NCBI GenBank assembly: GCA_949292905.1
Contig: CASFAV010000009.1
Coordinates: 62,001-126,000 of the forward strand
Direction: 5' to 3'
Origin: an uncultured Eubacteriales bacterium
GTDB taxonomy: Bacteria > Bacillota > Clostridia > Christensenellales > DTU072
Length of the DNA stretch: 64,000 nucleotides
A model generated the notes under the pieces. The model was not told where the DNA came from, did not search any database, and saw only the letters and a list, made by a program, of their open reading frames with translations. Below, piece after piece: positions 24,281 to 42,233 of the stretch (within the stretch, counting starts at the first letter, position 1; each line of letters begins with the position of its first letter). Both the position numbers and the translations under genes were made by a program.

Positions 24281-25348
24281 TCAGTTTTTCTTATGCAATA
24301 CGACTTTAGTGGAAGCTTCGCGTTTGATGTCCTCGTCTATTGCGGCATAGTGCTTTTTTGTAGTGTTGACGTCGCGGTGACCGAGCACTTCCGCAACCAT
24401 ATAAATATCCTTTGTTTCGCGATAAAGCCTCGTTCCGTAGGTCGAACGCAGCTTGTGCGGGGATACGCCTTTGAGCGGATTGGCGGTAGCGGAATACTTC
24501 TTGACGAGGTTTTCGACAGCGCGTACCGTGATGCGCTTGTTCTGCAGCGAAATAAACAACGCGTCCACATCGGAATACAGTCCGGCTTTCAATAATCTTT
24601 CCTGTCGCCACGGAAGATACAGCTCGATAGCGTCGCGCACCTCTTCCGAAAAATATAGTACGGTCACGTTGCCGCCTTTGCGAGTCACGCGAAAAGCAAG
24701 ATTTTTGAGATAGACGTCGTCTACGTTGAGTCCCACGCATTCGCTTACGCGAATGCCGGTGCCGAGCATTAGCGTAACTATGGCGATATCTCTGTCGCGC
24801 GTGTTAAGATTGTATTTGTCCCTGAATTCGTTTCCGAATTTTTTTTCACGCTCGACGACGTCGAGCATTACGTCCACTTCGTCGTCGTCCAGGCGGATAA
24901 TCGCTTTTTCGTGAAGCTTCGGAATGGCGACCTTGCTTGCCACGTTTTCCTTGAGCTTATCCTTATTATAGAAATACTTGAACATCGAACGTATCGAGCT
25001 CAATTTACGCGCCTTAGCTTTTTCGCCGTTGCGGTAGGGCTTTCCGTTGAAGCTGTAGAAGGAGAGATATCTCAAAAAATACTCTATCTCCGACGAAGTC
25101 ACATATTTATCTATATCGTCGAGAGTGATCTCCGTAATATCTTTGCCGATAAATCCGCGCACCTTATGCACAAGAAAATCGAAAAATATCATGAAATCCG
25201 TTGCGTAATTCAATTTAGTGAGAATAGACGTCCGCATATCCACGCCCGTGAAATATTCGCCGCAGAAATAGGGTAATCTCTCCAGCATTTCGTTGAATTT
25301 GATAAATTTTTCTTCAGTGAATTCGTCGTAATAAGAAGTCTTTGCCAT
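24281..25348 (-). CDS. xerS: Tyrosine recombinase, XerS-like
   Basis: 355 residues, the length of XerS rather than of XerC/D (about 300). An N-terminal SAM-like arm-binding domain (1-145) precedes the catalytic domain, which has the complete set R200 (GTGIRVSE), K224 (TRKGGN), H298 and R301 (SPHKLRSTYGTRLY), H324 (LGHRDV) and nucleophile Y334 (KKHY). The TRKGG and PHKLR...TRLY segments resemble XerS. XerS proteins resolve chromosome dimers at a dif site that, in streptococci, lies next to the gene. A dif-like arm is 20 bases from this start codon. It is the only recombinase in the window, so it may also integrate the neighbouring prophage. No ribosome site precedes the ATG. Confidence 0.85.
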   Translation of the reverse strand: MAKTSYYDEFTEEKFIKFNEMLERLPYFCGEYFTGVDMRTSILTKLNYATDFMIFFDFLVHKVRGFIGKDITEITLDDIDKYVTSSEIEYFLRYLSFYSFNGKPYRNGEKAKARKLSSIRSMFKYFYNKDKLKENVASKVAIPKLHEKAIIRLDDDEVDVMLDVVEREKKFGNEFRDKYNLNTRDRDIAIVTLMLGTGIRVSECVGLNVDDVYLKNLAFRVTRKGGNVTVLYFSEEVRDAIELYLPWRQERLLKAGLYSDVDALFISLQNKRITVRAVENLVKKYSATANPLKGVSPHKLRSTYGTRLYRETKDIYMVAEVLGHRDVNTTKKHYAAIDEDIKREASTKVVLHKKN

Positions 25349-25354
25349 ATCGCG

Positions 25355-25383
25355 ATTATATCATATCTATTCGCAAAAAACAA
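25355..25383 (-). promoter_or_regulatory. Promoter of the xerS-like gene, apparently leaderless
   Basis: Minus strand: TTGTTT (25378-25383), 17 bases, TATAAT (25355-25360). Only six bases separate the -10 from the ATG at 25348, so transcripts would start at or next to the start codon, consistent with the missing ribosome site. The -35 region overlaps the dif-like arm at 25368-25378. Confidence 0.65.
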
Positions 25384-25395: not shown

Positions 25396-25552
25396 TAAAG
25401 CAAAATTTTCCGTGAGAAAACCAAAGGACTGATACCTTAAACGGCAAAAAACAGATTGTTGCTATATCCTTATATATATCAATATAATAATATCGAGCGG
25501 CATCAAGAGAAAACAAGACTACTTAAAAGGAAAGTTTAGCGATTTACAATAC

Positions 25553-25672
25553 GCAACGACCGCCCGAAAATTCGGGCGGTCGTCGGTGAGAAGTCTACGC
25601 ACGAAGACCAAACGTTCTTCTCTGTCCACGCGAGATTGCCTCCGTGGCTTCCCTTTTTGGGGGCTGACGGTC
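25553..25672 (-). ncRNA. Structured small RNA family A, copy A1
   Basis: Minus-strand promoter TTGACA (25702-25707), 17 bases, TATTAT (25679-25684); predicted start near 25672. About 120 bases with stem CCC/GGG near the 5' end, stem CCACG/CGTGG, stem GAGAAG/CTTCTC, and a 3' hairpin of 13 bp (25556-25568 with 25571-25583). Unlike copies A2 and A3 the 3' hairpin is not followed by a T-run, so termination may be weaker. Family unknown to me. Confidence 0.7.
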
Positions 25673-25830
25673 AAATAAATAATATCATGAGGTTGACAAC
25701 ATGTCAAATGTTAATTATAGCTTGAAAAGGAAAGGAATTAGACTTATAGATTCTTCTATAGCTTGGAAAAAGACTAAAACAGGCAAATATAAAATGAATG
25801 GTGATTACGACAATAATAGGTAAAGTATAA

Positions 25831-26196
25831 ATGAACATGCCTAACCTTATTGTATCTGCAAGCGACAAAAGAAAAGCGGTTTATAAAGGCGACGTTTACG
25901 AACTGCCGGTAGCCGCTAAAAAACAAATTGTGGATCATTTTTATGACGCTAACGGTAAACGCAATCGTAAGTCGGTAGTTTATTGGGGAATAAATCCGGA
26001 CATCACGCGCTTATCGTCGGCAAACAAAAAAGCGAGGGCGAAAAGGATGAATATAAGTATTCGGCATAATGAGAAAAAATATTTTTCGGTAAAGCCGTTG
26101 CCTTGGAAATATAAAAAAAGTAGCGCCGCCAAACCTTTCGATTCGTTCAATTGTTTCCGATGGAAACGCGCTACATTAAAAGTATATGCTCGATAA
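25831..26196 (+). CDS. Small basic protein of the satellite-like element
   Basis: 121 codons. The C-terminal part (IRHNEKKYFSVKPLPWKYKK) closely matches the restored frame of the broken gene at 38054 (IRHDEKKYFSERPLPWKYKK), so the two are paralogs or recombinants. The N-terminal part differs (YKGDVYELPVAAKKQIVDHF). Compact, Lys/Arg-rich, no membrane span. After the shared part the frame runs on through the antisense C1 RNA gene, while the 38-kb copy stops there, so the last 30 residues may be an extension by frameshift. The ribosome site is weak. Function unknown; a small RNA-binding or toxin-like protein is only a guess. Confidence 0.45.
   Translation: MNMPNLIVSASDKRKAVYKGDVYELPVAAKKQIVDHFYDANGKRNRKSVVYWGINPDITRLSSANKKARAKRMNISIRHNEKKYFSVKPLPWKYKKSSAAKPFDSFNCFRWKRATLKVYAR
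26113..26174 (-). ncRNA. Structured small RNA family C, copy C1
   Basis: Minus-strand promoter TTGACT (26204-26209), 17 bases, TATACT (26181-26186); the RNA should start at 26174, exactly at the closing stem GTAGCGC (pairs 26168-26174 with 26120-26126). Inside are hairpin GTTTCC/GGAAAC and a hairpin with a GAAA tetraloop, giving a three-way junction of about 55 bases. The closing stem is followed by seven Ts, a built-in terminator. The interior differs in sequence from C2/C3 but keeps the architecture. Confidence 0.7.
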
Positions 26197-26234
26197 ATAG
26201 GAAAGTCAAGTATGAGAAAATATAAATCTGTCAT

Positions 26235-26315
26235 AAAAAAACGTCCCCTGGATTAAGCACCAGGGGCAATTCCGGGACACTCGCCGGTAGCTGTAAACGG
26301 TCAAGCCGTTTACCT
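26235..26315 (-). ncRNA. Structured small RNA family B, copy B1
   Basis: Minus-strand promoter TTGACA (26346-26351), 18 bases, TAATAT (26322-26327). Predicted RNA of about 75-80 bases: hairpin GTAAACGG/CCGTTTAC, hairpin CCGG/CCGG with loop CGAGTGTC, then terminator hairpin CCCCTGG/CCAGGGG followed by seven Ts (26235-26241). Confidence 0.75.
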
Positions 26316-26379
26316 GATATCATATTACAATTACGAACTAAATTTGTCAAGAAACGAATAGGGTTATTCTACGGAAACA

Positions 26380-26496
26380 AAAAAGCAACCGCCCGAATAA
26401 TCGAGCGGTCAGGCGGAAGTCTACGTCTTTCAAGCCAGCGTTCTTTCCAGTCCACGCGCATTCGCCGTGGCTTCCCTATGTAGGGCTGAATGGCAA
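26380..26496 (-). ncRNA. Structured small RNA family A, copy A2
   Basis: Minus-strand promoter TTGACA (26525-26530), 16 bases, TAAAAT (26503-26508). Stems CCCT/AGGG, CCACG/CGTGG and a GGAA/TTCC stem, then 3' hairpin ACCGC...GCGGT followed by GCTTTTTT (T-run complement at 26380-26385). Confidence 0.75.
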
Positions 26497-26545
26497 TTAT
26501 TATTTTATTGGGAGTTAAAATTAATGTCAAGTACCTATAGCAAAA

Positions 26546-26627
26546 AATAAAAAGTCCCCGGATATACCCTCCGGGGCAATCCCGCTACAGTCGAGCGGCA
26601 GGGTGTAAACGGTCAAGCCGTTTACCT
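26546..26627 (-). ncRNA. Structured small RNA family B, copy B2
   Basis: Minus-strand promoter TTGACA (26657-26662), 17 bases, TAATAT (26634-26639). Hairpins GTAAACGG/CCGTTTAC, CCGC/GCGG (compensated relative to B1) and terminator CCCCGG/CCGGGG followed by TTTTTATTTTTT. Confidence 0.75.
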
Positions 26628-26698
26628 AATATCATATTATAATTACAAACTATATTTGTCAAGAAAAACCGAGGTAATAGAATAGGGTATCATACGGG

Positions 26699-26814
26699 AA
26701 AAAAGCAACCGCCCGAATGATCGAGCGGTCGGTGAGAAGCCTACGCTAAAAGGTCCACGTTCTTCTCTGTCTACGCGCATTCGCCGTAGCTTCCCTTTTT
26801 GGGGGCTGATGACC
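26699..26814 (-). ncRNA. Structured small RNA family A, copy A3
   Basis: Minus-strand promoter TTGCCA (26844-26849), 17 bases, TATACT (26821-26826). Stem CTACG/CGTAG replaces CCACG/CGTGG of A1 and A2, a compensatory double change. Stem GAGAAG/CTTCTC is kept. 3' hairpin ACCGC...GCGGT with six Ts (26699-26704). Confidence 0.75.
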
Positions 26815-26860
26815 AAATACAGTATAACATAGGAGTTTGTTTATGGCAAGAGTACATATT

Positions 26861-26940
26861 AAAAAATCCCCGAAACTAAACCGTTCGGGGCAATGCCGGG
26901 ACACTCGCCGGCGGGTGTAAACGGTCAAGCCGTTTACCTA
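26861..26940 (-). ncRNA. Structured small RNA family B, copy B3
   Basis: Minus-strand promoter TTGACT (26970-26975), 18 bases, TATATT (26946-26951). Hairpins GTAAACGG/CCGTTTAC, GCCGG/CCGGC and terminator CCCCGAA/TTCGGGG followed by six Ts (26861-26866). Confidence 0.75.
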
Positions 26941-27010
26941 AAGTCAATATATCATAGTTTGAAATATTAAGTCAACAAAATTCGTCGCGGCCGTTCTACC
27001 GAAAGCATCT

Positions 27011-27076
27011 AAAGAAAAGTAGCGCCCACAAGAAGCCGTTACCTTCTCGCATTATGGCAATTTAATGCCGCGCTAC
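27011..27076 (-). ncRNA. Structured small RNA family C, copy C2
   Basis: Minus-strand promoter TTGACT (27107-27112), 17 bases, TATACT (27084-27089). Closing stem GTAGCGC/GCGCTAC (27070-27076 with 27019-27025), inner hairpins GGCA/TGCC and AGAAG/CTTCT, then TTTTCTTT. The interior is identical to copy C3 at 38344 over about 60 bases. Confidence 0.7.
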
Positions 27077-27137
27077 ATAGAGTAGTATATTCGCGACGAA
27101 TAACAAAGTCAAGCATGAGAAGTATAAATCCGACATT

Positions 27138-27220
27138 AAAAAATATCCCCGGGATTCGCCACCCGGGGCAATTCCGCTACTGTCGAGCGGCAAGGCGTAA
27201 ACGCTCATAGCGTTTACCTA
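27138..27220 (-). ncRNA. Structured small RNA family B, copy B4
   Basis: Minus-strand promoter TTGACT (27250-27255), 18 bases, TATATT (27226-27231). First hairpin is GTAAACGC/GCGTTTAC, a compensated top pair relative to B1-B3. Second hairpin CCGC/GCGG. Terminator CCCCGGG/CCCGGGG followed by a T-run (27138-27143). Confidence 0.75.
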
Positions 27221-27255: not shown

Positions 27256-27790
27256 GAAAAATCTGAGGTTATAAAAAATACAAATTATTCTCGTAAAGCG
27301 CACAGATTTACGATACGCGCGAAATAAGTTCGGAGCATTATGAGCGGAGCGGTGTTGCTTAATGTTGCAATATCTGCCGTAGTGAATCGGATAACCAATG
27401 TTGACGGTTTTTAGAAGGCAAAGAAGAGGAACGTAAAAAATGCGGTAAGAATGATATCGAAAATTATAATCTCCGCGGCTGTCCGAGATAAGCGTAATTT
27501 TTCGGTGAAGTCAGTATACGGCACACGGTAGGCGGGCAAGAAAGTATATGAACGCATAAATCGCTTAAATCCTTCGTCCGATCGCGAGAGATCTAACGGA
27601 AAATATTCGAAGATTTTTTCTCTGAAAAATTTTCCTTGTTCTCATATGAAAATTTCACGACGGATTTTTCATCGACTCGGTAACGAATTTTTTGAGTGAG
27701 CGGACTCTGAAAATCGTTTTCTGAGAGGCGAATTTTCTGAAATAAAAATAGAGGAGAAGCAAAATTTTCGAGCCGAAACATCCGTATATT
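27256..27790. other. Gene-free stretch between the RNA array and the prophage start
   Basis: No convincing reading frame and no further copy of the A, B or C RNAs. A 68-codon minus-strand frame at 27593-27799 has no ribosome site and Phe/Ser-rich, low-complexity content. The stretch ends at the dif-like site at 27791. Confidence 0.6.
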
Positions 27791-27819
27791 TATTCGCAAA
27801 ACAACAGCTTTTGCGAGTA
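27791..27819. other. Damaged dif-like site at the prophage left end
   Basis: Arm TATTCGCAAAA (27791-27801) and centre CAACAG are identical to 42234-42250. The right arm is TTTTGCGAGTA (27809-27819), with one inserted C before it and one substitution. Confidence 0.65.
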
Positions 27820-27871
27820 CCGGACTAAAAAGTAAAAGTCTTTGACTTTTAACTCAAATCGTGGAGGGATT

Positions 27872-28897
27872 ATGCAAAAATACAAATTATTAGAAAGGCG
27901 CGTTGAGAAAGTCTTTATTTCTCCGAATGCCGACGTCAACGTTACGTTTGCCGGGAATATAACGAAGGTCGTAACGGCGCTGCCGACGTCTTCGATGAAA
28001 GTTAAAATCCTGTCGAAGCTTGAAGTCGAGAAGTATGAGCTCGATCCTAATAAAAAGTGGTATCAGCGTTTGTCTGACGGCGAGATCAACGAATGCGAGC
28101 TTATGGAAACGAGAGAAGACGATTACTCCGGCGTAAAAGCAACGTTGTTACGCTTGCGCGGGTATATTAACGCGAATGTAACGAATGCGCATAAATGCAG
28201 ATGGATAACTCTTACATATCGTCAACGCGAAGACGAGAAGTCCGAAGCGGTGCCCATGACGGATCCGGAACGGCTGTATCTTGATTTTAAGCATTTCATT
28301 TTTCGCCTTCGTTTGAGGTATCCGGGAATGGAATATATAGCAGTTGCCGAACCACAGCAGAGCGGATCGTGGCATATGCACGTTATATTAATTTTCAAAA
28401 AACGCGCTCCGTTTATCCCGTTCGACGTGCTTCAAAATAAGTATTGGCGAAAAGGCTATGTTGATATTCAGAAGATAGACGATGATTGCGATAATCTCGG
28501 CGCGTATTTCAGCGCGTACCTTGCCAATATCGAATACGAGGAAGGGGACGAGCTTCAGGAAGGGGACGAGCTCGTTACCGGTAAAGACGCAAAGGGCAGA
28601 GAAAAGAAATTCATAAAAGGCGGCCGCTTGAAGTTCTATCCGCCGAAAATGAATTTATACAGGATCAGCCGAGGGATCGTCAAGCCGGAAGAAGCTCAGA
28701 TGAAGTATAAAGAGCTTGATAAGTCGAAGCTCGGCGCATTGACTCATAGCGAGATAATCGCTCTATATAACGAAGAAACCGATCGGATGATAACGTATAA
28801 ATACGAATATTATAATCGTAAGATCAAGCCTGAGGTAGAGGATCCGAGGCTTGAAAGTATCAGGCAGCGGCTACGTGAAATGACAAAACGGCGTTAA
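27872..28897 (+). CDS. Rolling-circle replication initiator (HUH Rep)
   Basis: 341 residues from ATG at 27872, which has GGAGGG six bases upstream; an upstream TTG in frame has none. HUH nickase motifs are in order: motif 1 ITLTY near residue 112, motif 2 WHMHVIL near 167-173 (the two metal-binding His), and motif 3 tyrosines in YFSAYL near 211-216. Nicks the double-strand origin and becomes joined to DNA in rolling-circle replication. As first gene after the dif-like site it fits the pII position of filamentous phages. A terminator hairpin follows 40 bases downstream. The family within HUH is not resolved. Confidence 0.85.
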   Translation: MQKYKLLERRVEKVFISPNADVNVTFAGNITKVVTALPTSSMKVKILSKLEVEKYELDPNKKWYQRLSDGEINECELMETREDDYSGVKATLLRLRGYINANVTNAHKCRWITLTYRQREDEKSEAVPMTDPERLYLDFKHFIFRLRLRYPGMEYIAVAEPQQSGSWHMHVILIFKKRAPFIPFDVLQNKYWRKGYVDIQKIDDDCDNLGAYFSAYLANIEYEEGDELQEGDELVTGKDAKGREKKFIKGGRLKFYPPKMNLYRISRGIVKPEEAQMKYKELDKSKLGALTHSEIIALYNEETDRMITYKYEYYNRKIKPEVEDPRLESIRQRLREMTKRR

Positions 28898-28935
28898 AAT
28901 CCCTTAATTACAATTCATAAAAAGAGAATAACGGA

Positions 28936-28960
28936 CCTCTCCGGAAACGAGAGGGCTTTT
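28936..28960 (+). terminator. Terminator after rep
   Basis: CCTCTC pairs with GAGAGG around a 7-base loop, followed by GCTTTTCC. Confidence 0.6.
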
Positions 28961-29106
28961 CCGTAACCGAAAAACGAATAAAATACCCCCGAAAACACGC
29001 GAAAAAGCCGATTTCAGCGTACTCGGCGTGATTACGCGCAGCCGGGGGAAAATTATGAGAAAGGGGGCGTGGGGGGATTGAGGCATTCCCCCCACTTATA
29101 CTATTA

Positions 29107-29172
29107 AAAACGGTCCGGGAGAGCGGATCCGTGCCGCGACAAAGTCCGGCACGGGCCGCGAAGGACCGTTTT
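29107..29172. repeat. Long hairpin, candidate replication origin or packaging signal
   Basis: A 66-base two-tier hairpin: outer stem AAAACGGTCC with its exact complement, inner stem CCGTGCC/GGCACGG (29129-29135 with 29148-29154), and GCGG/CCGC pairing between them. It lies between rep and the antirepressor gene. In filamentous phages such hairpins form the origin and packaging signal; it could also act as a bidirectional terminator. Confidence 0.6.
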
Positions 29173-29208
29173 CCGTATAAAAAATCAGCTCATAAAACCA
29201 CCGAAAGC

Positions 29209-29240
29209 CCTTATACGCGCGCGTCAGCGCGCGTATAAGG
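29209..29240. repeat. Perfect 14-bp hairpin near the presumed phage origin
   Basis: CCTTATACGCGCGC and its exact reverse complement flank GTCA. No T-run follows on either strand, so it is not an ordinary terminator. Single-stranded phage DNA would fold here stably. Confidence 0.65.
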
Positions 29241-29392
29241 ATAAGCTCGTTTATACAAGGATATTAGACAAAGCAAACGACAAAATTACAAAATCGAGAC
29301 AAGATGATCATCCATCATCCGGAGCATAGGCTCGGGTGGGGAGCGAAGCCGGAGGAGAGCAGCGGAGCCGGGTTCGCGGAAGGAATTTTTGA

Positions 29393-29421
29393 TTGACTCT
29401 CGTCCCGGGCTCTGCTATAAT
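29393..29421 (+). promoter_or_regulatory. Promoter upstream of the antirepressor-like gene
   Basis: TTGACT (29393-29398), 17 bases, TATAAT (29416-29421). The transcript would have a leader of about 180 bases before ATG at 29607; a 33-codon frame (29451-29552) in the leader has no ribosome site. Confidence 0.7.
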
Positions 29422-29606
29422 GCGTATAGGGAGCGTTATTTATTTGATTGATGGAGTTTGAAGAGTTCGATAATTATGATCAACGTTTAGAGACAGAAGC
29501 TCATAAATTCGAAGAACGAAACAAACAAATAAATCACCTCTTTTTTTTGTAAGGAAGCGGAAGCGATCCGGATAGTCAACGAAGGGTGGATTTCAGTAGA
29601 GGAACT

Positions 29607-30446
29607 ATGGACAACAGAATTAAAGTATTTGAAAGTAAGGAAGTCAGAACGGTTTGGAACGCCGAAGAGGAAGAGTATTACTTTTCCGTGGTAGATGTTG
29701 TGGCGGTCTTGACGGACAGCAAAGATCCGAGTGCATATTGGCGAAAGTTGAAGCAACGCTTAAAGTTGGAAGGCAATGAAACCGTGACAAATTGTCACGG
29801 TTTGAAAATGCAGGCATCTGACGGCAAAATGCGTATGACTGATTGTTTGGATACAAAAGGAATATTACGGCTTGTGCAATCTATACCTTCGCCGAAAGCC
29901 GAACCTTTCAAGATGTGGCTTGCGCAGGTCGGAAGCGAACGCCTTGATGAAATAGCGGATCCGGAGCAGGCTATTCTGAGAGGTGCGGAATATTACAGGC
30001 GCAAGGGATATTCTGAAGGTTGGATAAATCAACGTTTGCAAACCATAGAAATGCGGAAAGAGCTTACTGACGAGTGGAAATCGCGCGGAATAGAGCAGGA
30101 GAGGGAGTATGCCATTTTGACCAACGAGATGACAAAAGCGTGGAGCGGGCTATCGGTACGTGAATATAAAGAATTCAAAGGATTAAAGAAAGAAAATCTG
30201 CGCGACAACATGACCAATATCGAATTGGTTCTGAATATGCTGGCGGAAGTTACGACAACGGCTATTTCACGACAGGAGCAGCCCGGAACTTTTGATGAAA
30301 ATAAAGCTGTCGCGCGTCGCGGCGGAAAAGTGGCGAAGAATGCCCGTACTGACATTGAAACGCAGCTGGGACAATCGGTCATATCTCCGCTGAACGCAAA
30401 CGATAAACTTGCGCTCGAAGTAAAACAAGACGAAGATAAAACTTAA
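29607..30446 (+). CDS. Bro-N / DinD-type antirepressor-like protein
   Basis: 279 residues from ATG at 29607 (GAGG upstream). Residues 1-105 form a Bro-N domain (VWNAEEEEYYFSVVDVVAVL, DPSAYWRKLKQRL, TDCLDTKGILRLVQSI). The rest, with EWKSRGIEQEREYAILTNEM and KARTD-like segments, matches the long C-terminal half of DinD-like prophage proteins. Such proteins are often antirepressors or damage-responsive, and this one may counter the XRE repressor at 31508. The next gene is convergent. Confidence 0.75.
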   Translation: MDNRIKVFESKEVRTVWNAEEEEYYFSVVDVVAVLTDSKDPSAYWRKLKQRLKLEGNETVTNCHGLKMQASDGKMRMTDCLDTKGILRLVQSIPSPKAEPFKMWLAQVGSERLDEIADPEQAILRGAEYYRRKGYSEGWINQRLQTIEMRKELTDEWKSRGIEQEREYAILTNEMTKAWSGLSVREYKEFKGLKKENLRDNMTNIELVLNMLAEVTTTAISRQEQPGTFDENKAVARRGGKVAKNARTDIETQLGQSVISPLNANDKLALEVKQDEDKT

Positions 30447-30465
30447 AAGCGCCGGTGTGGCGCTT

Positions 30466-31194
30466 TTATTTTAAGTTTATATTAAATTCGAAGAAAATTT
30501 TATCTATTGCTCGTTTAATGTCTTTTATGTCTTCTGCTGTTGTTCCGGCTAATTTTATTCCATGTTTTTTATATATATTTTGTGTGTATTGTTTTTTTTC
30601 GATATATCGAGGATCTTTGGTGTTTTCATATCCCCAATGTTCTATGTATAAATCATAATCGGGAAGATAAAAATCCGGGTGTAGTTCTTTTGTTTCTCCT
30701 TTTTCGTCTTTATAGAAAAAAGATTTTTCGTATTCGCATTTAATATTTCTATAATAGAGTTCGTCATAAATGATTTTTTCTTGCTGACTTCTCACATACA
30801 TTCCGTTTGCAGTTTTAACGTCACGATTACCATACTCATCTATTACAACGAATTCTTTTAAATTTTTAATTATTACCGTTACGTTTTTGTCTTTATATTT
30901 ATAATAATGTTCTTTGCAAAACAAATTTCCGTTTTCTGTTTCTTTGCCGCAAAAAAGACAGAATTTATTTATTTTACCTTCGTCCTTTTTTTCTTCGGAA
31001 CTGTTTATATTTTGTTTACACTTGCATTCTTCGTTTGCAAGGTAGAAGGATCCGCAATCGGGGCATTGAATAAGTTTGCCTTCTTTCAGCATTTGCGCAT
31101 GCTCACGGCATAAGCCGTCTTTGCGTGCGTTGCCGTACCAAACGCTTGTAGGATTTCCGCAGATAGGGCATTTAGGTTCTATTTTTTTTGTCAT
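30466..31194 (-). CDS. Zinc-finger protein with PD-(D/E)XK nuclease-like domain
   Basis: About 242 residues from ATG at 31194. The N-terminal half has several CxxC zinc-binding pairs (CPICGN, CPDCGS, CKC, CLFCGK). The C-terminal half has RSQQEKIIYDELYYRN, then HPDFYLPDYDLYIEHWGY, the E...HPDF-x-DLYIE layout of restriction-nuclease-fold domains found at the end of some helicases. AT-rich compared with the housekeeping genes. It is in a minus-strand block with the repressor, where prophages often carry cargo such as exclusion or defence genes. Function is inferred from motifs only. Confidence 0.65.
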   Translation of the reverse strand: MTKKIEPKCPICGNPTSVWYGNARKDGLCREHAQMLKEGKLIQCPDCGSFYLANEECKCKQNINSSEEKKDEGKINKFCLFCGKETENGNLFCKEHYYKYKDKNVTVIIKNLKEFVVIDEYGNRDVKTANGMYVRSQQEKIIYDELYYRNIKCEYEKSFFYKDEKGETKELHPDFYLPDYDLYIEHWGYENTKDPRYIEKKQYTQNIYKKHGIKLAGTTAEDIKDIKRAIDKIFFEFNINLK

Positions 31195-31501
31195 AAATTG
31201 TTTCAACCTTTTTATTTTTTTTGTTTTTGATGTGCAAAATTATTGAAGATATAAAGGTAATAAGCCAAATTGCAAATAAGATTACTGCTATAATCATATT
31301 AACATATCTATAGTTTTCAGCGAATTTATTGATAAAAAAGTTGTTAATGCCTATTATTGTTAAAATTACAAATAAAAATATAAATGATTGAATTATTGTT
31401 TTAGTAATTGAATCATTTTTAATTATATTCTTGTTTTTGTTATATTCTTTGTCATCTTTATATAATTTGTACGCATATTTAATATTTTTTTTAATATCCA
31501 T
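31172..31501 (-). CDS. Two-span membrane protein beside the prophage repressor
   Basis: 109 residues, Lys/Asn/Ile-rich. Charged N-terminus, then two membrane helices (about 35-57 and 66-92) and a basic tail. It lies 6 bases after the repressor gene and overlaps the nuclease-like gene start, so the three form one lysogeny-phase operon. A superinfection-exclusion role would fit the position but is not shown. Confidence 0.6.
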   Translation of the reverse strand: MDIKKNIKYAYKLYKDDKEYNKNKNIIKNDSITKTIIQSFIFLFVILTIIGINNFFINKFAENYRYVNMIIAVILFAIWLITFISSIILHIKNKKNKKVETIYDKKNRT

Positions 31502-31507
31502 AGTCCC

Positions 31508-31801
31508 TTATTTTTTTATTGTCTGATTTATTGTTCCTTTGTTGTTTCTAAAGTCATTGTTAATTTTGCCAATAGAAACGTTTTCTGGGTTATTATCTAT
31601 ACAGAGTATATAATTTGCATCTAGATCTAATACTTGACACAAGTTTGCAAAGGTATCTAGCGCCGGCATAGCGTGTCCCGATAAATAGCGTTGAACTGCT
31701 TGTTGACTTATACCGAGTTTTTTCGCTATTTCGGTTTGGGATTGTCCGCTTTCTTTTATTGATTCTTGTATTTTTTTTCTAATTTGGTCGAGGTCAATCA
31801 T
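31508..31801 (-). CDS. XRE-family prophage repressor
   Basis: 97 residues. The helix-turn-helix is canonical: QSQTEIAKKLGISQQAVQRYL (about residues 20-40), then FANLCQVLDLDANYIL. A short C-terminal tail without a protease domain means it is not RecA-cleavable like CI of lambda. Divergent from the early plus-strand genes at 31912; two inverted-repeat operators lie in the gap. Confidence 0.8.
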   Translation of the reverse strand: MIDLDQIRKKIQESIKESGQSQTEIAKKLGISQQAVQRYLSGHAMPALDTFANLCQVLDLDANYILCIDNNPENVSIGKINNDFRNNKGTINQTIKK

Positions 31802-31841
31802 AATTCTTACCTTATATTTAACAAATCTTAGTAGTTTTGTC

Positions 31842-31893
31842 TTGACTTACAATTATTAGTTGTGATATATTTAATATAACAATCACTGATTGT
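31842..31893 (+). promoter_or_regulatory. Phage early promoter with two repressor operators
   Basis: TTGACT (31842-31847), 18 bases, TATATT (31866-31871). Two copies of ACAAT-N5-RTTGT: 31849-31863 (between -35 and -10) and 31879-31893 (just after the -10). Both would block RNA polymerase if bound by the divergent XRE protein. Third, weaker ACAAA...TTTGT at 31821-31840. Confidence 0.75.
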
Positions 31894-31911
31894 AGTTTTT
31901 AGGAGGTATAT

Positions 31912-32085
31912 ATGGCAAAGCGAAAACGCAGTTGTATTCTGTATTCTGAGCGCAAAGCATTAGCAGACATTTTGGAAAAATGGATAAAAATGTGCGGCGT
32001 TGACTGTTCTGTGTTCAATGTTTTAACTTTTCTGAATTCTGAAAAGTTAATGGATGCAGATGCCGTTGCTGCGTTTATAAATTAG
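31912..32085 (+). CDS. Small basic phage protein, first gene after the operator, ending at an in-frame TAG
   Basis: 57 codons from ATG with AGGAGG upstream, the best ribosome site in this stretch. It starts MAKRKRSC and has a short helical core. The stop is TAG, after which the same frame continues 45 codons to TAA at 32221, including a segment ending KQKRGRPQNI that looks like a basic DNA-contacting tail. Either the gene has a nonsense mutation, or TAG is read through, or these are two genes with the second starting at ATG 32131. Position suggests a Cro- or Xis-like early regulator. Confidence 0.55.
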   Translation: MAKRKRSCILYSERKALADILEKWIKMCGVDCSVFNVLTFLNSEKLMDADAVAAFIN

Positions 32086-32130
32086 GGTGGCGTTAAACCC
32101 AATTGCGAGTATAATCCCGGCTTCAAAACA

Positions 32131-32223
32131 ATGGGGGACATTATACAAGTCAGATATTATCCTGACGGTGTTGTAGAAGTAAAAACAATAAAGCAAAAGC
32201 GCGGTCGTCCGCAAAATATATAA
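32131..32223 (+). CDS. Possible second small early protein or the read-through tail of the gene at 31912
   Basis: 30 codons, MGDIIQVRYYPDG...KRGRPQNI, in frame with the preceding gene past its TAG. No ribosome site precedes ATG 32131, which favours this being the detached C-terminus of the upstream gene. The RGRP motif resembles an AT-hook. Confidence 0.35.
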   Translation: MGDIIQVRYYPDGVVEVKTIKQKRGRPQNI

Positions 32224-32237
32224 AAGAGGTGAAAAAG

Positions 32238-33257
32238 ATGGAAAACGTGCAAAAAGTGATAGTTTCCGGCTACGGTCAGACGTCTGACCGCGAGATAAGT
32301 GTAGTAGAGAAGAAATACTTCGAGCTCCCGGAAGACTTCCCGGAGATCCCGGAAGGGTATAAGGTATGGAAAGGAAGCAAAATTGTTTCTTGTCTGTCGG
32401 AATTCTTTTCGTATGAGGATTATATTTATGTTTTAAGGTCTTTTGAGAGTTATTCAGTTTGTTGTTTTAAATTCTGGTTTAAATCCCGTTCTTTCTTTAT
32501 TTCATTTACTCCGGAAAATACTAATCATGAATTTTTTATATCAATATCCGGGAAGGAATATTTATATATAAAGTTTGATATATCGGGATTTCTTAAGATT
32601 CCGTATACGTCGTTAAGGCGGAAAATTTTAGAAAATTTAGGTGTTTACGATTTCGTTAATGAAACTGAGCTTCCGAACGGATTGAGTACGGATTTCAAGT
32701 CTTCGGTAGAAGCTCTTGACGTTCTGAACGTAGATCTTCAGAAGAATTTCCTTAAGATAGCGGCATATCTCAGGCTCATGAATGCATATCCCGGCAATTT
32801 CGAAAAGTTCGGCTGTAAAGACGTATATCAGTTTGCCGAAAGGCGTTGGGGTTACGGATCCACGTCGGTTAAAAATTTCCTCGCGATAGCAGAAAAATTC
32901 ATGTCCGGGCAAGAGCTGTTGCCGGCTGCCGCAGGCTACGGGTATTCTCAGCTCGTGGAGCTTTCGTCCGTTCCGGACGGAGCGCTTGCGGAATTTAATC
33001 CGAAGATGACGATCGCGGAGATCCGCAAGAAGAAAAAGGAAGCCCTCGAGGGCGAGAAGGAAGAGAAGGAAAAAGCTCCGAAGAAGGAAAAAGAGATAGA
33101 CGTGTTCAAAACGTCGCTTCGTGCGTTCTTCTGGGGATATAAAATTCCGTACGACGATCCGAAAAGCAGCGGATACAAGGTATATCGTAAGGCGTTACGC
33201 GAGGTTATCGAGAAGCTCAACTATAAGTTCGATCTCGGTATAAAAGCAGATTATTAA
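32238..33257 (+). CDS. Phage protein with DUF3102-like central region
   Basis: 339 residues from ATG at 32238 (AGAGG eight bases upstream; an earlier GTG is too close to it). Residues about 175-270 follow the pattern of DUF3102-type DNA-binding proteins of mobile elements: a helix with aromatic-rich FAERRWGYGSTSVKNFLAIAE, then GYGYSQLVELSSVP and MTIAEIRKKKKEA. The N-terminal 150 residues are aromatic-rich and unknown; a Lys/Glu linker and a compact C-terminus follow. Plausible role: regulator or replication accessory. The first 90 codons are locally more AT-rich than the rest. Confidence 0.55.
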   Translation: MENVQKVIVSGYGQTSDREISVVEKKYFELPEDFPEIPEGYKVWKGSKIVSCLSEFFSYEDYIYVLRSFESYSVCCFKFWFKSRSFFISFTPENTNHEFFISISGKEYLYIKFDISGFLKIPYTSLRRKILENLGVYDFVNETELPNGLSTDFKSSVEALDVLNVDLQKNFLKIAAYLRLMNAYPGNFEKFGCKDVYQFAERRWGYGSTSVKNFLAIAEKFMSGQELLPAAAGYGYSQLVELSSVPDGALAEFNPKMTIAEIRKKKKEALEGEKEEKEKAPKKEKEIDVFKTSLRAFFWGYKIPYDDPKSSGYKVYRKALREVIEKLNYKFDLGIKADY

Positions 33258-33311
33258 TGCACCGACCGAAAGGCGGTTAAGCATAGCCCATAGGGTAAAA
33301 GGAGTAGTAAT

Positions 33312-33791
33312 ATGGCAAAAAAGTATGATTTCGAAGAAGTCAAAAACGTAAAAGATCTTCCGATCAAAGTAGAGTACGGCACCTACAAAAACGATGCCGG
33401 CGAGCTACAGGAAAGGGTGACGTTCTATGTCGAAGTGGCGGTAGACGGAGAAAGCGAGAGAGTTAATCTCCGAATTCCTTCCGGTATGAAAAAGCGACAG
33501 CTTCTCAAACGTATCGAGTCCGGCGACGTCGCCACGCTCAGAGTAAAGGCGGGTAGTTTCATTACTAAGCAGGGCGAAAAGAAATACGGTTGCTTTTTCT
33601 TCGTGCCTCTCACCGTATCGGGCTTCGAATGTGAAGTCAGAGTAAGCGTAGTCGGTGAACAGCTCGGAGATAGAGATAGCGGATTTATGGATAACCGTCT
33701 TGAACGCTTCCTCGTTCTGCGTGAGCTCGGACTCAAGATCGATTCGGTCGGCATCGAAGAGCTCGATCTTCCCTTCGAGGGAAATGAATAG
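33312..33791 (+). CDS. SSB-like small phage protein (candidate pV analog)
   Basis: 159 residues, beta-strand-rich. The last residues, IEELDLPFEGNE, resemble the acidic DDIPF tip of single-stranded-DNA-binding proteins, and the order Rep ... this gene ... coat-like genes is where filamentous phages encode the SSB pV. No family motif proves an OB fold. GGAG lies upstream of the ATG. Two pseudoknot elements follow directly. Confidence 0.45.
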   Translation: MAKKYDFEEVKNVKDLPIKVEYGTYKNDAGELQERVTFYVEVAVDGESERVNLRIPSGMKKRQLLKRIESGDVATLRVKAGSFITKQGEKKYGCFFFVPLTVSGFECEVRVSVVGEQLGDRDSGFMDNRLERFLVLRELGLKIDSVGIEELDLPFEGNE

Positions 33792-33837
33792 CTTGTAAGC
33801 TGTACGGTATGGTATAGTTTCATCTTTTTACCCCCAT

Positions 33838-33875
33838 GTCCTTTGACGGGTTCGGACGTAAAAGTAAATCCGTCA
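33838..33875 (+). repeat. H-type pseudoknot element, copy R1
   Basis: GTCC (33838-33841) can pair with GGAC (33854-33857), which lies in the loop of a 9-bp stem TGACGGGTT/AATCCGTCA (33844-33852 with 33867-33875, one G-T pair). First of three near-identical elements. Confidence 0.65.
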
Positions 33876-33901
33876 CCATTCATAATTTTCCCCCTTGTCT
33901 T

Positions 33902-33938
33902 GTCCTTTGACGGGTTCGGACGTTAAATAAACCCGGCA
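33902..33938 (+). repeat. H-type pseudoknot element, copy R2
   Basis: GTCC (33902-33905) with GGAC (33918-33921); stem TGACGGGTT with AACCCGGCA (33908-33916 with 33930-33938, one mismatch). It ends 26 bases before the ATG at 33964, just upstream of the AGAGGAGG ribosome site, so it would lie in the leader of that gene. Confidence 0.65.
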
Positions 33939-33963
33939 CCAATTAAATTTAGAGGAGGTATAT

Positions 33964-34215
33964 ATGGACAAGCTCGACAGACATCAGAAATCCGATAAGC
34001 TGAAGTGGGTACTCACGGCGATCGTTCTCGTAATTATTCTTGCCATGCTCGGCGGTATTGTCGGCGTACTTGCAACGAAAACGGATCTTTTGGATCCGTC
34101 CGTAGGTATCGAGTCCGGCGATCAGAGCGGCGATCAGAGCGGAGAAGAAAGTCCCGTCACCGAAACGGTAGAGCAAGGCGTATTTGTCGTGGACGTAGCA
34201 GAAGCGGCAATTTAA
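33964..34215 (+). CDS. Small single-span membrane protein, candidate coat protein
   Basis: 83 residues. A basic N-terminus (MDKLDRHQKSDKLKW), one long hydrophobic helix (about 15-38, Gly-containing) and an acidic tail with the repeat SGDQSGDQSGEES. It has the strongest ribosome site of the prophage (AGAGGAGG, eight bases from ATG) and is flanked by pseudoknot elements R2 and R3, as expected for an abundant virion protein. Size and single helix fit a filamentous-phage major coat protein, but the charge order is opposite to that of M13 pVIII. Assignment is tentative. Confidence 0.5.
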   Translation: MDKLDRHQKSDKLKWVLTAIVLVIILAMLGGIVGVLATKTDLLDPSVGIESGDQSGDQSGEESPVTETVEQGVFVVDVAEAAI

Positions 34216-34241
34216 TTTCGTCAACACTTTTTTATGTTTTT

Positions 34242-34278
34242 GTCCTTTGCCGGGTGTGGACGGAAAATAAACCCGGCA
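34242..34278 (+). repeat. H-type pseudoknot element, copy R3
   Basis: GTCC (34242-34245) with GGAC (34258-34261); stem TGCCGGGT/ACCCGGCA, 8 bp perfect (34248-34255 with 34271-34278). Compared with R1, an A-T pair is replaced by C-G, a compensatory change. Confidence 0.65.
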
Positions 34279-34351
34279 CGAATAGGGTAATCCCTCCATA
34301 GATTTAGTCGCTCGCGGCTCAGACTATAAACGAGCCGTAAGGAGGCTCAAT

Positions 34352-35452
34352 ATGAAAAAAGTAATAATAACCGTCGTAGTCATAGCGTTGCTCGCTTCGA
34401 TCTGCGTTTTCACTCTTACCGGGTGCAGTAAACTCAACGAGTGGAAGGATAAGTTTATCGAGCTTATCAATCCGGAAGACGGATCCTCGAACGAAACCGA
34501 AGAGGGCGCTTTCACCGTGATCGTTGATGAAAAGCAAAACGAAGCCGTTGTTCAAGAGGGTAACGGTGTGATCTTGGAAGTGGTTCGTTTGTCAAGCAAT
34601 GACGGATCTTCGGTAAGTAGTTATCAATTAACGGCTACTATCCGACCGGAAGAGTTAAATGTTTTCGATATTTCTTGGTCTATGGAATTTGAAGACGGAT
34701 CTACTGAAAATATAGAAAATTATTTAAGCTTAACGTATAATGATGAACTAAAGCATCAAGTAAATATAAATTTAATAAATAGAGCTAATAAAGCAATATT
34801 TCTCAAGGCGTTAGTTGAGGAATTAAATATTAGCGCTACTTGTAAAGTTGATTTTATGCAAGTACCAAGTTCGGCGAAAATAAGCTTTAAAGATACTGCA
34901 GATACTTATTATTTTGCAAGTTTGGGATATATCGAAAATTCATATATAAACGGAATAGTTTCGCCTTATGACGTATACAAAACTTATGACTCTCGTGGTT
35001 TAGGTCAATATCTGGATAATGCTATTAAATTTGAATTTGTTAATAATTCGGATAGTGGTACTGTTCCATATGAGTTTAGTAATATTTATATGCGTGCCAG
35101 TGATTCGTTTAAGACAGCTTTACTTAATAGAAATCCTTCAAGTGGCGAAAGCAATTATGAATCTATTTTAATCGGTAGCAAAGCTGATTTAAGCGATTTT
35201 TCTTATACAGCGTTTGATCAAATATTTGTATTTTTATTGGGTTCTACGCGCGCTAATTTAACGCCTCCTGATCAAATATTGATTTCGTCGATATATAAAT
35301 TGGAGCAGGCTATCGGAGATTGCGCAGATGATCAATATCATATAGAGTTTTATGACGATACCGGTTTAATAAGTATTAAATGCAAATTTGGTGCTCCTCA
35401 AGTTGCCGGTGACTTAATAGATATTCAAATGCCGCAGAATGTGGTGATGTAA
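34352..35452 (+). CDS. Prophage lipoprotein
   Basis: 366 residues. Signal peptide with lipobox LTGC (Cys at about residue 25), so it would be anchored to the outer face of the membrane by a lipid. The rest is a soluble, Ser/Asn/Tyr-rich, beta-type domain with no recognised family. Codons become AT-rich after residue 100. The ribosome site GGAGG lies in a small hairpin GAGCC/GGCTC that could limit translation. Candidate minor virion or exclusion protein; the latter suits a lipoprotein of a resident prophage. Confidence 0.65.
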   Translation: MKKVIITVVVIALLASICVFTLTGCSKLNEWKDKFIELINPEDGSSNETEEGAFTVIVDEKQNEAVVQEGNGVILEVVRLSSNDGSSVSSYQLTATIRPEELNVFDISWSMEFEDGSTENIENYLSLTYNDELKHQVNINLINRANKAIFLKALVEELNISATCKVDFMQVPSSAKISFKDTADTYYFASLGYIENSYINGIVSPYDVYKTYDSRGLGQYLDNAIKFEFVNNSDSGTVPYEFSNIYMRASDSFKTALLNRNPSSGESNYESILIGSKADLSDFSYTAFDQIFVFLLGSTRANLTPPDQILISSIYKLEQAIGDCADDQYHIEFYDDTGLISIKCKFGAPQVAGDLIDIQMPQNVVM

Positions 35453-35453
35453 T

Positions 35454-36029
35454 ATGAAAAAAGTATTAAAAATAATAGCGCTTGTCTTGTTACTGGCGCT
35501 TTCGGTAGGCTTCATAACCGTAATGGTCAAGACAGATTTCTTCAGAAATTTCGAAGCGGTGGAAATACCAATTCCATCGCTTCCGGGTATCGTTAAAGAT
35601 CCGTATCTCGAAGTAGGCGGCGAGAAGTATACGTCCGGCGTTACGGAGCTTCCGGAAGGTCAAGTTCGTATCGACGTAAAAGAGACGGATACGTTCACGG
35701 TCAATATCGTTCCGTCCGGAAAGTCCTTCGATTTTCGCCACAATGGCGCTCTGACTAAGTTCCCGTACGGGCTAGAAGCCGATTGGAACGCGATCTTTAA
35801 GCTCGAAGTAGGAGAGGGGTATTTCAACTTCGACAATTCGAAGCAGATGATGTACGTTCTCGAGTGTATATTCCCGGGCGAGGAGATAACGGAGCTCAAC
35901 GGCTTCGAGAGTTCCGCAGCTTATTTCAATATCGAGGTAAAAGCCGGGGACGATACTTTGATCGTGCCTTTGTCCGGATTCTACGGATATATGAAGATAG
36001 AACTTTCGGACGAATATATCGTTTTTTGA
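35454..36029 (+). CDS. Signal-anchored extracytoplasmic protein
   Basis: 191 residues, one base after the lipoprotein gene. A positively charged start and one hydrophobic helix (about 7-28) precede an extracytoplasmic beta-rich domain. It lies in the structural block between the lipoprotein and the adsorption-like protein, so a virion-assembly or minor coat role is plausible. No family recognised. Confidence 0.55.
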   Translation: MKKVLKIIALVLLLALSVGFITVMVKTDFFRNFEAVEIPIPSLPGIVKDPYLEVGGEKYTSGVTELPEGQVRIDVKETDTFTVNIVPSGKSFDFRHNGALTKFPYGLEADWNAIFKLEVGEGYFNFDNSKQMMYVLECIFPGEEITELNGFESSAAYFNIEVKAGDDTLIVPLSGFYGYMKIELSDEYIVF

Positions 36030-36039
36030 TAGGTGGATA

Positions 36040-38061
36040 ATGAGTAAACGGATAGTTCTTTTGACGATTTTAAGTATATCGATATTTCTTGTTTGTATTA
36101 CCGGCAGTGTTTCGGTAGCGTATGCGGATCCCGAACTTGAATTCGATAAGACGTATGTGCTTGACGATCTCGAAGGCAGCGCCGTAGACGGGGTTCCGTT
36201 TAACGTTGCCGATTATCCGTATGACAAAAACGGTGATGTTGAAATATTAGGGTTCGCGGAATACGGATACTCGGCGTATTCCAATATGCAGGAAAATTTC
36301 GGTCTTTATATATACCTGTATAATCCGGCGCTTTTGGATATTTCGGATTCGAGTTGTAAGATCCAGATCGGGGTCGGATTAAGTAATGCTGCGGATTATA
36401 ACAAGTATTATCTTAAGATCTTGTCGAAATCTACGGGAACCGAGGCTAATCGGTTTATTAAAATGAAAGTGTTGAACGCCGATCAGCTGCTTTCGAGTCT
36501 GGATTCGGCAGAGCGAAGATATTACGTTTCCGGCATTGAAATTCTGTGCTACGGTTCCTCCGATATAATTGAATATAATGTAGGAAAACAGTTTAATTTC
36601 AGCGGTTTTTCCAAAGGTTACGGCTCAGATTCGAGTGCAGAAAGCACGCTTACACAATCGAGTTCCGATTTGGAATCTATAGAAATAACCGGGCTTTTGG
36701 ACAGGCAGACTGTGTACCGGGACAATATAACGAATTCTTCCGTTACCAGTCATAACCAGGTAAACGGAGTTTATTTCGGTTTGGATCAGGATTTGATTAA
36801 AAAATATGGGCTTTTGCAGAGGATCAAAGCCGAATGGTACGAATATCGAACTTCTCCGATTTTAGTTGTAGACAATCAGGAAGTTTATAATGCTTTATAT
36901 AAATATAGAGGTATAAATATCGGGGAATATAATGATAATGTTCCGTATGGTGTTTCTGTAGGTAATTACGTAGAAACTTTTCCTATTCTTTATGGTGGAA
37001 TAACGTACGATAAAACTAGGTATATTTACGATTTATCCTATAATATTAGGCTTGGTGAATATACTTTTGTTCGTGAATATAATTCTAATAGTGTTTTGAA
37101 TAAGCTGCCTTGGGTCATTTATGGTGATAATATCGTAAATAATTATCGTGTTTCCGAAGAAGCGTTAAAGGCTTATAAAACCGATTATGAAAATATATAT
37201 TCTTCTACGTTAGTTACGGACGGAACGGTTCGATACAGTTCGGACCTTTTTAATACTGATGTAGGTGCAGGTAGAACGGCAGGGTATAACGTTTACGACT
37301 TTGACGCCAATGCCGATGCATTCGATTTTACCGATTATGGTATAGATACTTCTACATATTCAGGTTGGCAAAAATTCAAAGCATTTTTCGGGTGGACGCC
37401 CGAGACGGAATCGGTTTTGCAAAATAAAAGTCCTATTGAAATTATCGATAGCGAAAAATTACGTGAATTATCTATTTTGGAGAATGCCGACTTTGCTCGG
37501 GAAATGCTGATTGACGAGTATGAAGTTGATAAATTTAAGTCATATTGTAATTCCGAAATCGCTGCAGGGCGTGTGGTCGTACATTTTAGGTTTGCTTGTA
37601 CCGAATATTATACTAAATTTGCAAATATAACGACTGATGATAATACTACTAGGCGTAGCGTTGATAATACTAGTGCTTTTTTCGCCGAAGAAAATGTTTT
37701 TTTAAATTTTGACGTAATAAGTTTGACTTTTAGGAACGATAACGGCGCTTATAGGATTATACCCGTAATAAACGATCCCATCGATATAATTTCCGGAATA
37801 GTGGGGCCTGTTGAGCCGCCGACAATGGGCGAAGAGGTTTCCGTTTGGTGGCAAGAAATGATGGAAAAAGTAAAAGATTTTTTCGGCGGCGCCGGCGATG
37901 AGGTATTGAGAATACTCGGTATTCTTGTTGGTATCGTGTTTGTGATAGGGGTTATAGCTATCGTCGTTAAGATATTCGGATTGTTCGGTTCAAGATCCAA
38001 AACGATTGTTAAGATAGATCCTTCTACGTATCGTTATAAAAAGGGAAGTAAACATGGCTAA
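36040..38061 (+). CDS. Large adsorption-protein-like gene (pIII analog candidate)
   Basis: 673 residues. Cleavable signal peptide (1-30, ending VAYADPE), a long extracytoplasmic Tyr/Asn/Asp-rich region, and one C-terminal membrane helix (about 625-650) before a basic tail (GSRSKTIVKIDPSTYRYKK). Signal peptide + large ectodomain + C-terminal anchor, placed upstream of the Zot-like ATPase, is the layout of filamentous-phage adsorption proteins such as pIII. No sequence family was recognised, and it lacks the Gly-rich linkers of M13 pIII. Codons from about residue 290 to 590 are AT-rich compared with the ends, suggesting a swapped receptor-binding region. Confidence 0.6.
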   Translation: MSKRIVLLTILSISIFLVCITGSVSVAYADPELEFDKTYVLDDLEGSAVDGVPFNVADYPYDKNGDVEILGFAEYGYSAYSNMQENFGLYIYLYNPALLDISDSSCKIQIGVGLSNAADYNKYYLKILSKSTGTEANRFIKMKVLNADQLLSSLDSAERRYYVSGIEILCYGSSDIIEYNVGKQFNFSGFSKGYGSDSSAESTLTQSSSDLESIEITGLLDRQTVYRDNITNSSVTSHNQVNGVYFGLDQDLIKKYGLLQRIKAEWYEYRTSPILVVDNQEVYNALYKYRGINIGEYNDNVPYGVSVGNYVETFPILYGGITYDKTRYIYDLSYNIRLGEYTFVREYNSNSVLNKLPWVIYGDNIVNNYRVSEEALKAYKTDYENIYSSTLVTDGTVRYSSDLFNTDVGAGRTAGYNVYDFDANADAFDFTDYGIDTSTYSGWQKFKAFFGWTPETESVLQNKSPIEIIDSEKLRELSILENADFAREMLIDEYEVDKFKSYCNSEIAAGRVVVHFRFACTEYYTKFANITTDDNTTRRSVDNTSAFFAEENVFLNFDVISLTFRNDNGAYRIIPVINDPIDIISGIVGPVEPPTMGEEVSVWWQEMMEKVKDFFGGAGDEVLRILGILVGIVFVIGVIAIVVKIFGLFGSRSKTIVKIDPSTYRYKKGSKHG

Positions 38062-38406: not shown

Positions 38407-38458
38407 ATTAAAAGTATATGCTCGATAAATAGAAAAGTCAAGCATGAGGAATATGAAA

Positions 38459-39440: not shown

Positions 39441-39441
39441 T

Positions 39442-42211: not shown

Positions 42212-42233
42212 TCGGGTCAATTCAGAAAACATT

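Follow-up and report, generated by a model that had tools for sequence, protein, structure and literature searches.

What are the small elements that stand nine times in a row, all on one strand, between a xerS-like gene and a prophage in the genome of an uncultured Eubacteriales bacterium, and how did they come to be there? The stretch concerned (64,000 nucleotides of contig CASFAV010000009.1, positions 62,001 to 126,000; hereafter the window) carries, on the minus strand at 25551-27219, nine RNA-gene-like elements of three families, A with three copies, B with four and C with two. Promoters, terminators and conserved folds leave little doubt that the predicted elements are structured RNA genes, and an origin of the array from phages, at a dif-like recombination site, is likely. 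The best explanation of the whole is that the nine genes were left there by filamentous phages and that their RNAs act as antidotes to a phage protein that is small, basic and MazF-like, binding and neutralising it; this is offered tentatively, and the antidote function of the array RNAs is a more doubtful part of it.

Read in the direction of transcription, the elements follow one another as B4, C2, B3, A3, B2, A2, B1, C1 and A1, at the places where a first reading, made without database searches (the sequence-only reading), had put them. Models built from good blastn matches (R1 for family B, 10 sequences; R2 for C, 7; R3 for A, 9) locate, all on the minus strand, B4 at 27138-27219 (promoter 27255-27226; R1, 92.4 bits), C2 at 27008-27079 (promoter 27112-27084; R2, 89.0 bits), B3 at 26859-26939 (promoter 26975-26946; R1, 90.6 bits), A3, including its terminator, at 26699-26821 (promoter 26849-26821; R3 match 26731-26816, 96.0 bits), B2 at 26547-26627 (promoter 26662-26634; R1, 84.9 bits), A2, again with its terminator, at 26378-26501 (promoter 26530-26502; R3 match 26411-26497, 78.4 bits), B1 at 26236-26315 (promoter 26350-26322; R1, 88.5 bits), C1 at 26109-26177 (promoter 26209-26181; R2, 57.6 bits) and A1 at 25551-25680 (promoter 25707-25679; R3 match 25585-25674, 98.4 bits). 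Each has a sigma-70-like promoter that scores 10 or 11 of 12 and stops 3-6 bases short of the model match; of 3000 random 50-base stretches, 0.9% score 10 or more and 5% score 9 or more. Fifteen promoter-like sites lie in 2 kb, compared with 4.2 (standard deviation 2.0) in shuffles, and nine of these sites belong to the nine elements. Across genomes, 49 of the 52 copies with enough upstream sequence (out of 54) score at least 9 of 12, and 44 score at least 10. A stem followed by a T-run ends eight of the nine elements, A1 having the stem without the T-run. A promoter for every element and this distribution of terminators had both been seen by the sequence-only reading, and both stand.

The folds are backed by compensatory changes. 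In model-fitted alignments, 94.1% of the stem cells of family C are paired, with changes on both sides at 15 of 19 pairs; the figures are 90.5% and 12 of 19 for family B, and 96.6% and 13 of 19 for family A. None of 500 shuffles reaches the observed number of both-side changes in A, B or C, and sliding the partner strand abolishes pairing; one of the five fold measures, the number of further standard pair types, is matched by shuffles more freely (C 73, B 492 and A 28 of 500). Compensatory changes are also seen among the copies of the window itself. Family A has in addition a putative pseudoknot helix, in which the 5' end would pair with the last hairpin's loop, with both-side changes at three of five pairs and 80.9% of cells paired. 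The families are also without a name, as had been supposed: Rfam (4227 families) gave no match at gathering score, the array having been scanned at E up to 10 as well. Matches to anti-hemB, Yfr1, suhB and snoR137 lay far under their cut-offs and were rejected. Nor are the copies flanked by terminal inverted repeats of the kind found in miniature inverted-repeat transposable elements, the alternative that had been raised against RNA genes; inverted pairs 20 bases or longer number two, and both match the terminator stem of A1 with those of A2 and A3.

Such elements could instead act as DNA, as complementary-strand origins or packaging signals of a phage with a single-stranded DNA genome. Their location on one strand in phages presumed to be single-stranded would suit this, as would their promoter-like sites: promoter-like sites can prime complementary-strand synthesis, as in Ff phages and rolling-circle plasmids. 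However, G-U cells outnumber A-C cells by 45 to 8 on the transcribed strand, which argues against a signal on the opposite DNA strand (the alignments were fitted to the transcribed strand). The T-run terminators, the presence of up to nine copies outside a phage and the occurrence of unlike folds at the same place also speak against DNA elements, and make this explanation very improbable. The related proposals that the RNAs are used by the neighbouring element, or serve it as packaging RNAs, are not supported as worded, since the array lies outside the left attachment repeat of the prophage, the resident prophage has a single C copy and many copies in other genomes are chromosomal, with no phage gene found near them.

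Where, then, do the families occur? By blastn (E<=0.01) the array matched 24 of 148 genomes, counting its own genome and weak matches. Model searches at E<=0.001 in 297 genomes of the order, its own included, found A and C in 13 genomes each and B in 12. In 35 loci (up to 20 kb around the matches; L-numbers below) there are 19 copies of A, 12 of B and 13 of C, including four doubtful ones: L128 (B, 27.7 bits, no promoter), L123 (B, no promoter), and L106 and L107 (A, weaker scores). The settings are of three kinds: filamentous-type prophages, lone positions in chromosomes, and small arrays near a dif-like site. Nine of the 35 loci (L099, L105, L109, L112, L114, L117, L126, L127 and L129) hold homologues of the pI/Zot-like protein of the resident prophage or of its proteins at 36040 or 34352, and here A, B and C occur as single units, not as tandem repeats. 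L108 and L123 have in common with the prophage only a bro or HTH gene; the BRO-N gene of the prophage (29586-30446) has an 80% identical relative in L108 (18985-19833), beside an A element and an aminotransferase gene. Among collections of phage sequences, INPHARED gave no blastn match and IMG/VR none to DNA patterns of A and C; four IMG/VR contigs found with the B pattern were rejected, being one phage gene region in which the stem is spelled inside coding sequence.

Many of the remaining copies are chromosomal, with no phage gene found nearby, and they raise the possibility that the families are host small RNAs that phages have picked up. Lone copies do stand between ordinary genes, such as B and C in L110 (genes assigned by eye) and C in L111, which lies between two arginine-type biosynthesis genes (by eye). 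Against this, each family is present in just 12-13 of the 297 genomes, and none of the three (E<=0.01) is found at any of the best 80 of at least 482 confirmed xerS loci of named genomes, a survey in which many contigs end within 5 kb and from which the genomes closest to the window may have been left out. The absence of the array from 80 of 80 xerS loci argues that it was acquired and is not a housekeeping feature, and a conserved host locus was rejected on the same result. Remnants of phage ORFs (open reading frames), moreover, adjoin the copies in the window, L100, L103, L104 and L115. A host origin is thus a poor candidate. The nearest relatives of xerS in named genomes are from uncultured Clostridia, and two protein relatives in a metagenomic protein collection are named Christensenellales and Candidatus Coproplasma, which makes Christensenellales the likely order. 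Two A copies (L107 9988-10077 and L103 9987-10072) adjoin loci that look CRISPR-like by eye, with a 1397-aa Cas9-like ORF in L107 and a repeat array with Cas-like ORFs in L103.

The surroundings of the array point to its source. The prophage extends from 27788 to 42264 and is delimited by a 20-base direct repeat. Its attL (27788-27821, plus strand) consists of the left half and centre of a dif-like repeat, with 25 of 34 matches, and its attR (42231-42264, plus strand) is a complete dif-like inverted repeat. It has a G2P-type rolling-circle initiator (27842-28897, plus strand; PF23343, E=4.2e-16; phrog_3419), as filamentous phages do, and lies between dif-like att sites, as do phages that integrate at dif. 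A large P-loop protein of 733 aa (39531-41732, plus strand) is called pI/Zot-like by motif, size and place; its P-loop was recognised by eye, and it has no family match in Pfam, PHROGs or NCBIfam. A search for the initiator in genome contigs gave no confirmed match. On the other side of the array is a XerS-like tyrosine recombinase gene (24281-25348, minus strand; PF00589, E=7.5e-27), whose best NCBIfam match is XerS at 183.8 bits, under the cut-off of 267. A half dif-like site stands upstream of xerS in the window (25368-25378), in L124 (315) and in L100 (8326; one mismatch), and may be an older att site or an operator of the recombinase. Farther off, at 250-7284, lies a 2344-aa ORF whose product is apparently a large surface protein, repetitive in sequence and with a membrane segment at its C terminus.

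Two features were absent from the sequence-only reading. The first is that the array lies outside attL. The second is a tenth RNA, a C copy within the prophage (38338-38409, minus strand; R2, 91.1 bits), which stands between the late gene 36040-38061 and the gene 38444-39232 and whose RNA body is identical, in the alignment, to that of C2. A scan of the window and 18 loci with the attR repeat, which found no site in 20 shuffled windows, placed, besides those of the window, dif-like sites with at least 24 of 34 matches in L100, L095, L098 and L101, some 310-710 bases away from the RNAs; none was found in L124 and L108, whose contigs end in the array, and L111 has one unrelated weak match. The RNAs lie on one side of the dif-like site and read away from it in five of five loci with differently arranged flanking genes, a count that is weakened by the orientation of dif having been taken as the better-matching one, with a single base deciding in three of the five (the spacer, judged by eye, concurs). 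The resident prophage and its C copy have the same geometry to the dif-like site as the arrays. The side and direction of the RNAs at dif, the broken phage ORFs beside them and the existence of phage copies of all three families together suggest serial integration as the source. Successive filamentous phages would insert at the chromosomal dif-like site, each leaving its RNA genes.

Serial integration bears also on how the array grew. Its repeat spacing is close to that first described (B1 to B2, 312; B2 to B3, 312; A2 to A3, 319-320), and a self-alignment of the B-A unit spans 453 columns with 73% identity. This fits the proposed tandem duplication, if an old one, and equally fits repeated uptake of similar phage DNA. 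Duplication alone is not established, since serial insertion of phages at dif would account as well for the side and orientation of the RNAs and for the broken phage ORFs.

Within phages the families have one small basic partner ORF each: ORF-N for A, ORF-B for B and ORF-C for C. Family A is divergent from ORF-N, whose product starts MSxVNYSL, in L099, L104, L105, L109 and L129, and likewise in the window, where ORF-N is broken; by sequence, the -35 box of A overlaps the start of ORF-N there. Families B and C are convergent with ORF-B and ORF-C and overlap their 3' ends. Among 200 genomes for each ORF, ORF-N was found in four, with A beside it in all four, ORF-C in 10, with C beside it in seven (two at E 0.002 and 0.018), and ORF-B in five, with B beside it in one, several of these genomes having also seeded the models. 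An antisense promoter with a T-run is present at the 3' end of seven of eight ORF-C homologues and four of five ORF-B homologues, compared with 31 of 669 other ORFs (11 of 13 for ORF-C and ORF-B together; Fisher 9e-13); 13 further ORFs had no room for such a unit, and the ORF-C homologues of L114, L127, L136 and L143 are outside the set. L148 is among the loci scored, and L150 yielded no ORF of 60 aa. The two negatives are L099, where a C match is present, and the broken ORF-B of L115, where a B match is present. At the 3' end of ORF-N the unit is seen in three of seven cases; the RNA of ORF-N sits on the 5' side. Past homologues of ORF-C or ORF-B in L136, L143, L144, L149 and L151 there is, by eye, an antisense promoter, a foldable stretch and a T-run in sequence unlike A, B or C, and these units are probably further undescribed RNA families of the same kind.

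The overlap of C and B with the 3' ends of ORF-C and ORF-B would also be expected of antisense control, in which the RNAs would pair with late phage mRNA from the opposite strand, as in type I toxin-antitoxin pairs or antisense immunity of phages, and the array copies would act in trans; the RNA body shared by C2 and the prophage C copy makes such pairing in trans possible. However, A, which faces away from ORF-N head to head, has no overlap with that ORF, compensatory changes in the folds are not required by complementarity alone, and unlike RNAs occupy the same place beside homologous ORFs. Antisense control is therefore an unlikely account of the three families, and the same combination of unlike RNAs beside homologous ORFs and compensated folds argues that the RNA acts via its fold. 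It would point, most simply, to binding of the partner protein by the RNA. The sequence-only reading had suggested that the RNAs might be decoys; this comes close to a phage protein being bound by RNA, and stands only as far as that putative binding does.

What the partner protein might be is suggested chiefly by ORF-B. The partner proteins are soluble-looking, basic and 80-147 residues long, and 34 of 35 relatives of ORF-B have a weak match to PemK/MazF at E<=0.05 (best 4.8e-4); ORF-B also matches a PHROG called MazF-like at 0.0046. Given this match and the putative pseudoknot of family A, the likeliest reading is a toxin-antidote-like module. Formed by the protein and the RNA within the phage, it would work like a type III toxin-antitoxin system, except that the RNA gene has a promoter of its own and lies on the opposite strand. 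A single ORF-N matches a PHROG of unknown function (E=5.5e-4), and the ORF-C relatives have merely a sub-threshold match, in 11 of 53, to an animal junction protein. At E<=0.001, metagenomic protein clusters number 370 for ORF-B, 52 for ORF-C and 731 for ORF-N, and searches of IMG/VR with profiles of the three gave no confirmed match. One metagenomic protein, P0158, resembles ORF-N at its start and ORF-C thereafter, a hint of recombination among the partner families.

Several observations weigh against a toxin-antidote-like module. The first member of ORF-B scores 17.5 bits to PemK, under the cut-off of 23.1; ORF-C and ORF-N are without an informative family match; the three ORFs have no detectable homology to each other; and a search of solved structures by sequence with the three gave no match. 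Structure models of ORF-C and ORF-B reached pLDDT values of 55 and 41, too poor to be used for a fold search. A swap test of the A pseudoknot did not discriminate (4.71 vs 4.53), and a pseudoknot was looked for in B and C and none was found. L126 has an ORF-N-like frame, a weaker one (E=6.7e-6), but no A match, and for many RNA copies the partner ORF is not nearby.

A toxin-antidote-like module would account for the state of the array if, as prophages decayed, the protein genes were lost and the RNA genes retained. An ORF-N remnant lies head to head with A1 at 25701-26001 (plus strand; two frames, 25701-25808 and 25813-26001; found by tblastn and profile), and pieces of ORF-C at 25992-26118 (plus strand; two frames; found by tblastn) run into C1. 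Beside A, 26 residues of ORF-N are left in L100 and 53 in L103, and in L115 the ORF-B match extends beyond the stop of the open frame. The phage protein remnants are thus broken while the neighbouring RNAs stay paired. Even in the resident prophage ORF-C (38036-38349, plus strand) is in two frames, 38036-38209 and 38200-38349, the end running into the C copy, so that the protein half of the module may already be broken there. The retained RNA genes would form a stock of antidotes, for the host or the next phage, against related phages.

RNA genes retained without their protein genes would suit a stock for immunity or of antidotes. They would also suit passive fossils, leftovers of old prophages at dif that have no present role and look intact because they are short, recent or found only when intact. 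The broken ORF pieces that adjoin the RNAs, the missing T-run of A1 and the score of C1, the lowest of the array, speak for this reading, as does the models' restriction to copies with a remaining fit. Against it, all nine elements keep promoters of 10-11 of 12. The window copies, moreover, have diverged, with differences at 31-40% of the unpaired and 17-22% of the paired sites, but few of their stem cells are unpaired (3 of 76, 4 of 57 and 3 of 54 in the three sets, that of C including the prophage copy), although part of this constraint may predate insertion. Pairing is also as good outside the nine phage loci as inside (96.8% against 96.1% for A, 93.7% against 94.5% for C and 90.6% against 89.5% for B), a comparison in which the in-phage figure for B is a single row and the search itself selects intact-looking copies, a bias that tells against retention for a function. 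Passive fossils are accordingly doubtful, though more plausible than any of the alternatives considered above.

The putative module has relatives among known systems without coinciding with any of them. Type III toxin-antitoxin systems (ToxIN, CptIN and TenpIN) have toxins that structurally resemble MazF/Kid (PMC5086642). They share with the present case a small MazF/Kid-type protein beside a folded RNA gene (here a weak likeness, for ORF-B only), a pseudoknotted RNA (here a putative pseudoknot, in family A) and the pairing of related proteins with unlike RNAs. Their RNA consists of tandem repeats upstream of the toxin, in one operon on the same strand with a terminator between, whereas here it is a single unit on the opposite strand with its own promoter, and RNA-only copies are common. 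The gene arrangement being unlike type III, the module is not filed there. Convergent antisense RNA is found in the type I pair TxpA/RatA, and the B and C genes resemble this in overlapping the 3' end of the protein gene from the other strand; compensated folds, the lack of ORF overlap in A and soluble-looking basic proteins set the present families apart.

As mobile elements, the phages resemble the dif-using filamentous phages described, with dif and XerS, in PMC3025954: the prophage has a G2P-type initiator, attL is half and attR a complete dif-like site, and a XerS-like gene adjoins. They differ from what is described there in carrying structured RNA genes and in leaving a row of RNAs on one side of the site. 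A large survey of inoviruses (PMC6813254) reports toxin-antitoxin pairs made of proteins and anticipates further, undescribed pairs. No description of such RNAs appeared among the matches listed in open-access literature on inoviruses or filamentous phages, RNAs and toxin-antitoxin systems.

A more far-reaching possibility, and an improbable one at present, is that the array is an RNA immunity archive at dif, in which each phage inserting at dif would bring a protein-RNA module, its protein genes decaying while the RNA gene is kept. The RNA genes would be stacked in one orientation, the newest nearest to dif, as antidotes against every type of module met. Such an archive would resemble CRISPR arrays and orphan antitoxins with an anti-addiction role, in that pieces of past elements would be held in order at one anchor site and would possibly protect; it would differ from CRISPR arrays in that whole RNA genes are kept after integration, without dedicated uptake machinery.

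Three RNA families with strong covariation and no match in Rfam thus link filamentous-type phages of Clostridia to families of small basic proteins that are without an assigned function. If the RNAs are antidotes, they would belong to a kind of toxin-antidote system in which the RNA gene lies on the opposite strand, and the array at dif would serve as a heritable record, in RNA, of the phages of the past.

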